Shown here in pieces: positions 1,949-6,157 of a stretch of 37,603 nucleotides of DNA; the first letter of the stretch is position 1; each line of letters opens with the position of its first letter. Origin of the DNA: a virus; IMG/VR virus record IMGVR_UViG_3300044712_002247, positions 1-37,603 of that record; one strand, 5' to 3'. The notes below the pieces were generated by a model. That model was not told the origin of the DNA. It was given only the letters and a program-made list of their open reading frames with translations, and searched no databases. Position numbers and translations under genes: made by a program.

Positions 1949-2779
1949 ATGAGCGCAGTATCAAAAATCGAAGTGGCAGACTTTAAAATGCCAGCTCAAA
2001 GAATGAAGTTTAGCAACGAAGAAATGGCTTTGCTAAAGAAAACAGTATTACCTAAGAACTGTTCACCAGAAGAAGCAGAAATGTTCGCTATGGTATGTAT
2101 ACAGTCCGATCTTAACCCATTCGTTAAAGAAATCTATTTAATGGATGTAGGCGGCAAGAACGTATATGTAATTTCAATTGGCGGTCTTCGAAAGATAGCT
2201 AGAAAGACTGGAAGATTTTCTCCTGGAAAAGAGCACCAATGTCTTAGAGACAAAGAAGGCAAGCTGATTGGTGTCAGAGCATTTATGTTATATAAAAGCC
2301 CATTAGGCTGGAGAGAGCTTTCTGAAACAGCTATGTTATCTGAATATGCAGGAAGAGGCGGTAACTGGAAAATCATGCCAGAAACCATGCTCGATAAATG
2401 TGCTCAGGCAAAATTGATCAGGCGCTGTTTGCTTGAAGATGTTGATGTAAACATCGACCAGATATATTTCCCTGAAGAGCTTGACCATGCCAGAAAAGCT
2501 GCAAAAGAAGAAGAGGGGATTAATGAAGTAGGGCAAGTCATTGTCGATGAAGTTCCAGAAGCCAAAGAACTTCTCGATGACAACGAGCTTATGGAATTAG
2601 CTGGAGAAACCATCCAAGCTTTGGGTGTTCCAGAAGACCAAAAGTATTCCATGTTCTTGTGCTTGAAAGATTGGCAAAATAAGGTAGCAAAGCCAATCAT
2701 GGATGTTGTCTTAGCCAAAAGACAGAATCCTCAAGAGTTCTTGCAGATCTTCAACAGATGGAAGGCAAAGAATATTTAG
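1949..2779 (+). CDS. bet: RecT/Bet-family single-strand annealing protein
   Basis: The 276-residue product has the Bet/RecT core: a segment with SDLNPFVKEIYLMDVGGKN, then VISIGGLRKIARKTGRF and a later SEYAGRGGNWKIMPETMLDK. These match the conserved core of phage Bet-type recombination proteins. Such proteins form rings or filaments on single-stranded DNA and anneal complementary strands produced by the partner exonuclease, here the gene at 738. The C-terminal third is acidic (EEEGINEVGQ..DEVPEAKELLDDNE), as is common where these proteins contact SSB or other partners. ATG at 1949 has GGAGG 7 nt upstream. Confidence 0.93.
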   Translation: MSAVSKIEVADFKMPAQRMKFSNEEMALLKKTVLPKNCSPEEAEMFAMVCIQSDLNPFVKEIYLMDVGGKNVYVISIGGLRKIARKTGRFSPGKEHQCLRDKEGKLIGVRAFMLYKSPLGWRELSETAMLSEYAGRGGNWKIMPETMLDKCAQAKLIRRCLLEDVDVNIDQIYFPEELDHARKAAKEEEGINEVGQVIVDEVPEAKELLDDNELMELAGETIQALGVPEDQKYSMFLCLKDWQNKVAKPIMDVVLAKRQNPQEFLQIFNRWKAKNI

Positions 2780-2791
2780 TGATCACAAAAC

Positions 2792-2815
2792 GGGCGGGAG
2801 ACTTACATCCCGCCC
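2792..2815 (+). other. GC-rich stem-loop downstream of the annealing-protein gene
   Basis: GGGCGGGA (2792-2799) pairs perfectly with TCCCGCCC (2808-2815) around an 8-nt loop, 12 nt after the bet stop. It stands out in an AT-rich genome. There is no T-run after it, so it is not a standard intrinsic terminator; it could protect the 3' end of the mRNA. It begins a 282 bp gene-free stretch (2780-3061). Confidence 0.6.
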
Positions 2816-2824
2816 CGGGTGGTA

Positions 2825-2849
2825 TGTGTTAACAGGAGTAGATAACACA
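2825..2849 (+). other. Inverted repeat with an SD-like loop in the 2780-3061 gap
   Basis: TGTGTTA (2825-2831) and TAACACA (2843-2849) are perfect inverted repeats. The 11-nt loop holds AGGAG, and an ATG follows at 2854, but that frame is only two codons long. It may be an operator dyad or an RNA hairpin. The rest of the gap is A-rich and contains one 75-80 bp leader repeat; no protein gene was found in it. Confidence 0.4.
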
Positions 2850-2952
2850 CAGCATGAACTAGCAAAAAAAAGCCAAACTACAGCCCGAAAAAACAAAAAG
2901 TTCATACGATCGAATGGTATGAAAATCCTCGATAAAACCCAACGAAATTCAT

Positions 2953-3029
2953 AAATTTTTCAGAAATCTCTGGAGATCAAAGAGATGCTATGAGTAGAGT
3001 AGAAAGGAAAGGGCAGTATGTCGCTGCCC
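2953..3029 (+). repeat. Leader repeat, copy A, before the first winged-helix gene
   Basis: This stretch aligns with 3396..3474: AAATTTT, AGAAAT, TCTGGAG, TCAA, TGAGTAG, GAAAG and GGGCAG...CTGCCC occur in the same order and spacing. It ends in a stem-loop, AAAGGGCAG (3008-3016) with CTGCCCTTT (3024-3032) around a 7-nt loop. The copy lies about 30 nt upstream of the ATG at 3062. It is probably a duplicated 5' leader or regulatory RNA. Confidence 0.7.
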
Positions 3030-3061
3030 TTTATTGAATACATTTATCAACTGGAGGATAA

Positions 3062-3394
3062 ATGCGACACGATCATACATCAAATCACGAATTCGAATCA
3101 ACACACAAAGCATCTTTGCCACAAAAATCATATTTTCTTGTTAATAGAAATTTTTTTGAAGACAACACAATATCTATAAATTGCAGATATTTACTTATAT
3201 ATATTCTTTTAAAAACAGAAACTGACGGAATTTCAATACAAGAAATCATCTGCGAATTAGATAAAGAATTTAGCCCAAAAGAAATATATCATCTTATTGA
3301 AGAAGCTGAAAAAGCTGGATATATGAAAAAAACAAAACTCACTTGCGACTACTATATTACATGCAAGAAAAATTTAGGGATTTCAGACGAGTGA
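3062..3394 (+). CDS. Small winged-helix protein, probably replication-associated (110 aa)
   Basis: Residues about 27-90 read as a winged-helix domain: a helix (CRYLLIYILLKTE), a helix-turn-helix (SIQEIICELDKEFSPKEIYHLIEEAEKAG) and a wing (YMKKTKL..YYITC). The ATG follows TGGAGG by 5 nt. It is the first of two successive winged-helix genes, each preceded by a copy of the same leader repeat, which suggests duplication of a leader-plus-gene module. It could be a DNA-binding regulator or a minor replication-origin protein; the sequence does not decide between them. Confidence 0.7.
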   Translation: MRHDHTSNHEFESTHKASLPQKSYFLVNRNFFEDNTISINCRYLLIYILLKTETDGISIQEIICELDKEFSPKEIYHLIEEAEKAGYMKKTKLTCDYYITCKKNLGISDE

Positions 3395-3395
3395 C

Positions 3396-3474
3396 AAATT
3401 TTAGAAATTTCTGGAGTTCAAGTACCACTTTGAGTAGTTTGTGAAAGAAAGAAGGGCAGATAGTCAGTCTGCCC
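3396..3474 (+). repeat. Leader repeat, copy B, before the replication initiator gene
   Basis: Second copy of the element at 2953..3029, starting 2 nt after the preceding stop. It ends in GGGCAGA (3454-3460) paired with TCTGCCC (3468-3474) around a 7-nt loop. Stem and flanks are conserved while the loop differs (TATGTCG in A, TAGTCAG in B), and the outer AAA/TTT pairs of copy A are absent. This pattern suggests selection on structure. Confidence 0.7.
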
Positions 3475-3508
3475 AAAAATGATCCTAAACCCGACATCTA
3501 GGAACACT

Positions 3509-4435
3509 ATGAACGTCGATACTTATACACGGTTACCATCTTTAGTTACAAGAGATAAAAAACTTACCCCATCACAAAAGATGCTACTTTGTATAATCCA
3601 TGGTTTAACTAATAAATTTGGATTTTGCTGGGCCAGCAATAGATATTTATCAGAGCAAACTAATTTATCGGTTAGAATGATCCAATATAATATTGCAAAA
3701 TTGAAAAAAGAAAAATATATAATAGTCGAAATACAAAATGGACGAGAAAGGAAAATATGGACCGCGGCAACATGGGCATATCGAGATAAGTACATAGAAG
3801 TTGATGGGCCAGAAATCATAAATTGCAAATCAAGTAAAGAGCTAGATCAACTGGTTCCCATGGATGGAACGCGTTGCATGGATGGTACGCATGCCATTGC
3901 ACCCTATATTATAGATATAAATAATACACAAAGACACAAAGAGGAAGCTCCCAGGGGAGACTTCCCATCTAAACCAATAAATAAATCAGGCTGCCAAAAA
4001 TGCACATGGCACAATCCACCAGAATCTCAACATCAAAAACAAGTTTATGCAAAAAAAGAACCACCAAAACCCAAAAAACCTGAAATATCACCCAAACCTA
4101 AAGAAAAAAAACAGCAGCAAGTAAGAATCTTGCTACCTGATGGAACGATTCAGCTAGAAAAACTTCCAGACAATGGGTTCATCCCAACTCCAGGTTCAGA
4201 CAAGATGGTTAAAGAATTGCAAGAAGAAGTTCTCTGTGATGCTTTCCAATGTGGCACTTCAAAATTTAGGATTCATAGAGGAGATTGGTATAGGTTTTAT
4301 GGGTTTTCTCCAGCAACAATTAGGCAAGCAGCGTATAATATTTGCAAAAGATCGAGGAACGGTGAGAAAATAAGCAATTACACAGCGTGCTTGTTAGCAG
4401 AATGTGCTAGAATTCGAAAAGCAAATAGGGGATAG
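3509..4435 (+). CDS. Replication initiator-like protein with HTH_36-type winged helix
   Basis: The product is 308 residues from ATG 3509, which has AGGA 5 nt upstream; an ATG at 3479 lies against the leader hairpin without a ribosome site. An N-terminal winged helix (LTPSQKMLLCIIHGL, then YLSEQTNLSVRMIQYNIAKL and KEKYIIVEIQNGRERKIW) matches the helix-turn-helix of phage replication initiators. A Pro/Lys-rich linker (KKEPPKPKKPEISPKPKEKK) joins it to a C-terminal helical domain that may contact the helicase. With DnaB 280 bp downstream, it probably plays the role of lambda O: origin recognition and helicase recruitment. The function is inferred from fold and neighbourhood. Confidence 0.78.
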   Translation: MNVDTYTRLPSLVTRDKKLTPSQKMLLCIIHGLTNKFGFCWASNRYLSEQTNLSVRMIQYNIAKLKKEKYIIVEIQNGRERKIWTAATWAYRDKYIEVDGPEIINCKSSKELDQLVPMDGTRCMDGTHAIAPYIIDINNTQRHKEEAPRGDFPSKPINKSGCQKCTWHNPPESQHQKQVYAKKEPPKPKKPEISPKPKEKKQQQVRILLPDGTIQLEKLPDNGFIPTPGSDKMVKELQEEVLCDAFQCGTSKFRIHRGDWYRFYGFSPATIRQAAYNICKRSRNGEKISNYTACLLAECARIRKANRG

Positions 4436-4718: not shown

Positions 4719-6041
4719 ATGGCAGACTTCTTTAGCAAAGACTCAGAAAGTATCTTGCTTTCTGCCATGACATATAGCGAAGAAGTCTTAGGATTCTGCT
4801 GTGAATCACTGAAGCCAGAAGATTTCTACTTCAGCGAAAACTGCATAATCTTCAAAGAGCTAGAGTCTTTCTACAAAGAGCACATCTCTCCAGATCTTCA
4901 TAAGCTCATCACGTCTTTGAAAGGAAAAGAAAAGCTAGCTCTTGCTGGGGGAATACCTGGGGTTACTGAAAGTGTTGGAAAATTCTTAAATGTCACAACT
5001 TCTGATGATGCTGAGTTTTACATCAAGAATCTCAAAGACCTTGCTACTTTAAGACAAATCCAAGCATTCAATGACATTTTGTCTAGGAAGCTCCAAGTCT
5101 GCAACGAAAAGCAAGCTGAAGATCTTATAGAGTTTTGCCAAAAAGAAAGTGATAGCTTCTTTAGCGCAAAGTTTGGAGAGATGGCACAGCCAATAGGAGA
5201 AGTTGCTAAGCAAGTAGAAAAAGAGATCATGGATGACTATGAGTCTTTAAAATCTTGTGGGTCTATAACCTCAAAGATGGGTATTCCATCTGGCTACAAA
5301 AAGCTTGATGAACTGCTAGGTGGTCTTAGAAATTCGCACTTGATAGTTTTATGTGCTAGAACGGGAATAGGCAAGACTGCTTTTGCTGTAAATCTTATGA
5401 AAAATTGCGCCATGAATGGCAAGTCTGTTGTTTTCTTTTCTTTAGAGATGAAGGCAAGTGAGATTGTTCGAAGGCTGATAAGCTGCATGTCAGAAACTCC
5501 TCTTTCAATCAACTTGGATTCAGTAGGAAAAATTGAGATCAAAGCAATACACAAGGCTGTAGAGAAAATATCAAACATGACCATCATCTGCGAAGACAAA
5601 GCAGGGATGAAGATCAATGAGATTGTCTCTAAGGCAAGAAGATACAAAGACAAGTACAAGACTGATATCATCTTCATCGATTACTTGCAGTTCATAAGAG
5701 GAATCAAGGCAGACCATAGGCATCTTGAGATTGCGGAATATACCAGACTGCTTAAAACGCTCGCCAAAGAGATTGATGTGCCAATAGTGGTATTAGCCCA
5801 GCTTGCTAGAAGAACTGAAGACAGAACGAACAACAGGATCTTTCTGTCGGATTTAAGAGAAAGTGGGTCAATAGAGCAAGATAGTGACGCAGTGATTGCT
5901 ATATCAAGACGAGATTACTATGACCCATATGACAAACCTGGAATGGCGCAGATAGATATCTTGAAAAATAGACATGGTCCATGTGGCGGACTTGAGCTTG
6001 AGTTTAAAGCAGGTATCGGTAAGTTTATAGAACCTGTGTAA
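4719..6041 (+). CDS. dnaB: Replicative DNA helicase, DnaB family
   Basis: The 440-residue product has the DnaB layout: an N-terminal helical domain (to about residue 140), a linker, and a RecA-like ATPase domain. Visible motifs are Walker A, ARTGIGKT (213-220); FFSLEMKASEIVRR; Walker B, IIFIDYLQF; the H3 segment VLAQLARRTEDR; and the arginine-finger region SDLRESGSIEQDSDAVI. It is slightly shorter than typical bacterial DnaB (about 455-470). As a hexameric 5'-to-3' helicase it would unwind phage DNA and recruit host primase and polymerase; no phage primase or polymerase was found. It follows the initiator operon with 2 bp spacing. Confidence 0.96.
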   Translation: MADFFSKDSESILLSAMTYSEEVLGFCCESLKPEDFYFSENCIIFKELESFYKEHISPDLHKLITSLKGKEKLALAGGIPGVTESVGKFLNVTTSDDAEFYIKNLKDLATLRQIQAFNDILSRKLQVCNEKQAEDLIEFCQKESDSFFSAKFGEMAQPIGEVAKQVEKEIMDDYESLKSCGSITSKMGIPSGYKKLDELLGGLRNSHLIVLCARTGIGKTAFAVNLMKNCAMNGKSVVFFSLEMKASEIVRRLISCMSETPLSINLDSVGKIEIKAIHKAVEKISNMTIICEDKAGMKINEIVSKARRYKDKYKTDIIFIDYLQFIRGIKADHRHLEIAEYTRLLKTLAKEIDVPIVVLAQLARRTEDRTNNRIFLSDLRESGSIEQDSDAVIAISRRDYYDPYDKPGMAQIDILKNRHGPCGGLELEFKAGIGKFIEPV

Positions 6042-6157
6042 ATTCGAACGGAAACGGCCATAGGATCGACTATCTAGTCAAAAGAATACAAGTACATGCT
6101 TTTGAGTTAAAAATCGATTATAGGTCATTTAAACATCATTCTGTGAGATTTTATAAT

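Follow-up and report, generated by a model that had tools for sequence, protein, structure and literature searches.

Candidate leftward antisense units, placed like lambda oop, opposite the start codons of W1 and the replication initiator gene rep in a temperate phage with presumed chlamydial hosts

Introduction

Plasmid rep genes are controlled by antisense RNAs of the CopA/RNAI type, which are encoded in cis. In phage lambda, the oop RNA is transcribed leftward from the pO promoter to the tO hairpin; it begins 11 nt before the O gene and extends over the 3' end of cII (PMC5869508).

Here, we describe an early region with a comparable layout in a 37.6-kb virus record of IMG/VR (IMGVR_UViG_3300044712_002247), positions 1–37,603 of which are referred to as the window. 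The record represents a temperate phage encoding an integrase, a P22-type portal, RecT, an O-like replication initiator and DnaB. Its early region is arranged in the order recT, repeat copy A, W1 (3062–3394), repeat copy B, rep (3509–4435), a small ORF and dnaB. No whole-region DNA match was found in phages. Since relatives of the portal (54–76% identity) sit on contigs of Chlamydiota metagenome-assembled genomes (Simkaniaceae, Parachlamydia and Chlamydiia), we infer that the hosts are amoeba-type or environmental chlamydiae. L070, a phage contig whose portal is 76% identical, is binned as a Methanomicrobiales archaeon, which is probably a case of misbinning.

Results

Copies A (2953–3032) and B (3396–3474), both given on the plus strand and delimited by alignment and shuffles, each consist of 55-nt linear blocks followed by a hairpin. 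In agreement with the preliminary description, which had reported perfect hairpins with different loops, the GC hairpin of A (3008–3032) has a 9-bp stem and that of B (3454–3474) a 7-bp stem, each with a 7-nt loop. Both can be read on the minus strand as leftward intrinsic terminators, with the tails TTTCCTTTCT in A and TTCTTTCTTTC in B; on the plus strand, hairpin A is borderline terminator-like and hairpin B is not terminator-like. A pattern scan of positions 2760–3760 returned three terminator-like sites on the minus strand, at 2815–2792, 3032–3008 and 3474–3454, compared with 0.4 expected for all sites. The site at 2792–2815 is an 8-bp GC hairpin directly after recT, terminator-like on the minus strand only and not closely followed by a gene start.

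The placement of these terminators was compared, by one criterion, among nine distinct related phages with a rep gene, the expectation being taken from the terminator density of each record itself. A minus-strand terminator at most 170 nt upstream of rep was present in eight of the nine phages vs. 0.39 expected, and in the ninth, L080, an A-run and a hairpin that falls below the G+C threshold could be recognized by eye. Terminator scores of the d'Aubenton-Carafa type were weak for both copies in the window (−10.9 for A and −5.7 for B); in the relatives, five scores were between 25 and 44, with −0.4 in L004 and −6.4 in L079.

Conservation of the rep leader sequence was seen in a group of five relatives. 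When A and B were compared pairwise with the leaders of the relatives, z values of −1.0 to 1.4 were obtained, the exception being L067 with A (z 3.5); nor were A and B singled out by a profile built from the five leaders. As the leaders of the window show no clear similarity to those of the relatives, it is position and orientation that have been kept, not sequence. Where the leader is longer, in five relatives, rep is preceded by a 12-bp stem in which three base pairs are altered on both sides.

Other features were also recorded in these phages. An element of the form GATCGTT...CGATTCTGTGCG lies upstream of rep in L039 (3362–3457), L053 (4738–4826), L032 (2964–3052), L067 (3773–3861) and L070 (3159–3263), and beyond rep in L079 (3818–3889, minus) and L004 (4565–4608, minus, on the other strand). 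There is a second copy in L032 (18933–18969), and the window holds a weak match at 6041–6076 on the minus strand (E 0.027). A further minus-strand terminator-like hairpin was observed in the early region of L039 (2160–2191), L032 (1903–1934) and L067 (2566–2597), with the common plus-strand loop CTGTTGTGAG. Finally, a minus-strand terminator occurs soon after the portal gene in L039 (12090–12119), L032 (12362–12391) and L070 (12170–12194), with strong facing promoters in two of the three.

Promoters were scanned with an approximate E. coli sigma70 matrix, which may not suit the presumed chlamydial hosts. A leftward promoter is predicted to face each hairpin, TTGATT-18-TATGAT (3072–3101, minus) facing A and TTGTAA-18-TATAAG (3522–3551, minus) facing B, the latter having the weakest support when judged alone. 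In nine of ten cases, the minus strand opposite the starts of rep and W1 carried two promoter-like elements separated by a spacer of 18 nt, and the predicted transcription start lay between −2 and +12 of the start codon in all ten. With this matrix, the rep/W1 promoters scored 7.7–13.0 vs. a mean of 4.5 (sd 2.3) at 199 control gene starts, the narrow promoter window of −5 to +15 having been picked after the pattern was seen. In the wide window employed first (−40 to +45), local ranks were 0.015–0.33 and B was unremarkable, 0.276 of the local windows scoring as well.

Because the N-terminus of rep is conserved at the protein level, the starts were also recoded synonymously. The observed score was in approximately the top 12% in nine of the ten cases (P at or below about 0.12), the rep start codons of related phages being not fully independent of each other; for six more independent loci, Fisher's method gave 1.8e-4, with controls that were themselves somewhat inflated (21% at P ≤ 0.11). 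In silico, a leftward sigma70-type promoter is hence predicted at the start of the O-like initiator gene, although B is weak on its own.

A blind scan for units, defined as a promoter followed by a terminator within 40–200 nt, detected five of them in the window, all but one pointing leftward. The starts of three fall at 1672, 3064 and 3514, which correspond to the beginnings of ORF 1667, W1 and rep. The first of these is a third predicted leftward unit (1605–1672, minus), which starts at ORF 1667–1880 with TGGACA-17-TATATT and has its terminator at 1629–1605. In 14 sequences, 7 of 31 gene-opposed units started at −12 to +15 of a gene start, where random shifts predicted 0.64 (P < 1/3000), and all seven belong to rep, W1 or ORF 1667. 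As a positive control, the identical scan was applied to the right 21.5 kb of lambda (27000–48502), where the O gene starts at 38686. Exactly one unit was returned, with its terminator at 38624–38607 and its start at 38,675, the same position as the published 5' end of oop RNA (PMC5869508).

We consider it probable that A and B contain the 3' terminators of short leftward antisense units which, for W1 as for rep, span the start codon and the ribosome-binding site (RBS) and are placed like lambda oop. A cis-regulatory RNA, one of the options in the preliminary description, is the class best supported by our results, but on the opposite strand to the one assumed, given the leftward terminator architecture and the facing promoters at the start codons. 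It is less likely, to a degree that we would call unlikely, that the hairpins are only insulating terminators which halt stray leftward transcription into the rightward early operon, with no dedicated antisense promoter or RNA of importance. Such insulation would account for the conserved placement of the minus-strand terminators, for which the evidence is stronger than for the promoters, for the presence of four minus-strand terminators between 1606 and 3474 of the window and for the weakness of promoter B alone; however, facing promoters at start codons are enriched well over the controls, and the scan that finds them finds oop and nothing else in the right 21.5 kb of lambda.

The antisense units would yield an RNA A of approximately 65 nt (3000–3064, minus) and an RNA B of approximately 70 nt (3445–3514, minus), each predicted to form two stem-loops and complementary to a translation start region (RBS plus start codon), that of W1 in the case of RNA A and that of rep in the case of RNA B. 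The predicted start-to-terminator RNAs fold with z values of −5.4 (A) and −3.8 (B), and with −5.5 and −3.5 in L004 and L079, respectively; the 5' stem alone reaches −5.1 in A and −3.4 in B. In the sense direction, a stem-loop in the W1 mRNA (3041–3064, plus; z −4.2) has the Shine-Dalgarno sequence (CUGGAGG) in and beside its loop and the AUG in its 3' stem.

The likeness of A and B to each other extends beyond the hairpins. As had been described, AGAAAT, TCTGGAG, TGAGTAG, GAAAG and GGGCAG are common to both copies, and the duplication is borne out by a local alignment score of 66, whereas 5000 dinucleotide shuffles averaged 23.3 and never exceeded 46. The left flank alone gave z 8.5, a score reached by 0 of 5000 shuffles, and the hairpins z 5.0. 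Similarity ends leftward at 2953/3396, the sequence further left giving z −0.4, and it ends to the right of the hairpin, with z −0.2 for the stretch from hairpin to start codon. No third copy was found within the window.

A search for further copies elsewhere had two outcomes. The linear blocks had no copy: their exact pattern matched nothing in IMG/VR, a 17-base half-pattern gave 20 IMG/VR matches, all inside long reading frames and none reaching the full element, and a sequence model gave weak matches only in 232 Chlamydiota genomes (best E 3.7e-4, in one genome). In contrast, the position and orientation of the hairpin were conserved, as shown above. No match to the region was obtained in Rfam at gathering scores, and three weak matches (E 0.85–3.4) were judged to be due to chance. 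Leader peptides were considered for A and B and discarded, as by eye the frames differ relative to the hairpin.

Seen from the antisense promoter, the linear blocks lie beyond the terminator and are therefore outside the antisense model. They may be the remnant of a duplication or of a recombination linker, and two sequences alone cannot tell constraint from recent duplication. The fact that similarity spans the left flank and the hairpin, and not the body of the antisense RNA, would fit sense leader elements or operators, in which blocks and hairpin would function as part of the rightward mRNA or as DNA bound by a protein and control W1 and rep jointly, and so would the borderline terminator-like character of hairpin A on the plus strand. 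We nevertheless hold this to be improbable, since the blocks are without relatives in the IMG/VR patterns and the 232 Chlamydiota genomes searched, the two copies fold differently upstream of the hairpin and neither A nor B contains a conspicuous plus-strand promoter. More improbable still is a functionless scar or recombination linker left by insertion of W1 between recT and rep, which would be in line with the abrupt ends of the repeat on both sides and with the relatives examined, where no W1-like gene was found between the recombination gene and rep, but which is at odds with conserved blocks and perfect, loop-divergent hairpins suggestive of constraint and leaves unexplained the minus-strand features common to other phages.

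A winged-helix gene had been described after each copy, and this could be confirmed for only one of them. The rep product (3509–4435, plus) is, by domain match, a lambda-O-like replication initiator with an HTH_36/replication-initiator N-terminus, for which a start at 3509 is more likely than one at 3479. W1 (3062–3394, plus; 110 aa) had no match in Pfam or NCBIfam at cut-off, only a weak one to a PHROG of unknown function (E 0.0027), and its single-sequence AlphaFold model has a pLDDT of 54. It was also considered as a rep paralogue, an idea that was rejected as W1 could not be aligned with rep and shows no detectable similarity to it.

A repeat search revealed two tandem 18-bp iteron-like repeats inside rep (3859–3894, plus), which are a candidate origin. 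They begin 350 nt into the gene, compared with 348 nt for the iterons of lambda O, and direct repeats beginning about 286–366 nt into rep are also present in L079, L004, L067 and L032; the same search found none inside rep of L053 and L039. Because the tandem repeats are located in rep itself, a placement also seen in lambda O and in several of the relatives, and because A and B occur singly at a distance of 443 nt, these copies are unlikely to be the origin iterons for which they had been taken as one option.

Discussion

Based on these features, we infer the production, exact start sites and action of the antisense RNAs as follows. Transcription of the minus strand would start at the first codons of W1 (~3064) and rep (~3514), run left over the start codon and RBS and stop at hairpin A or B; the products would be antisense RNAs of approximately 65 and 70 nt with two stem-loops each. 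By pairing with the leader of the mRNA, these RNAs could reduce the expression of W1 and rep, either blocking the ribosome or forming a duplex exposed to RNase III, and/or the convergent promoters could interfere with rightward transcription. By analogy, the lambda precedent would favour transcriptional interference as much as pairing.

In a wider sense, we put forward tentatively, as a proposal more open to doubt than the antisense units themselves, that temperate phages of environmental chlamydiae control several early genes, including the initiator gene, by serial start-codon antisense RNAs, which have arisen or been kept independently of oop, and that a start-codon promoter with an upstream terminator constitutes a general control module of replication regions. 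Should these RNAs be real, the oop arrangement, described here from lambdoid phages, would have a counterpart in phages with relatives in a distant bacterial phylum, and its retention by position and orientation despite leader change would indicate selection on the arrangement itself. A role in replication control would then become testable by comparison, and the phages of obligate intracellular chlamydiae would become more accessible to studies of their gene regulation.

Compared with lambda pO-oop-tO, the locus resembles it in a leftward promoter, here predicted, where the O-like initiator gene begins, in a short RNA with two stem-loops, likewise predicted, in the placement of a putative, in A and B low-scoring, intrinsic terminator a short way before that gene, and in iteron-like repeats about 350 bp inside it. 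It differs in that two, possibly three, predicted units stand in series, and in that the predicted RNAs have their 5' ends inside the first codons and span both the RBS and the start codon of the gene that follows. Further, the predicted RNAs do not reach the preceding gene, RNA B ending ~50 nt to the right of the W1 stop and RNA A ~220 nt to the right of recT. Because an antisense overlap of the kind that oop has with cII was looked for and not found, A and B are not classed as oop, even if by analogy their working would be oop-like.

The CopA/RNAI type provides a second comparison. Unlike those plasmid systems, the predicted units lie in a phage early operon and have their terminator upstream of the gene; in common with them, a short structured RNA encoded in cis would oppose the leader of a replication-initiator mRNA, and RNA B, by its predicted coordinates only, is complementary to the initiator leader including the RBS.
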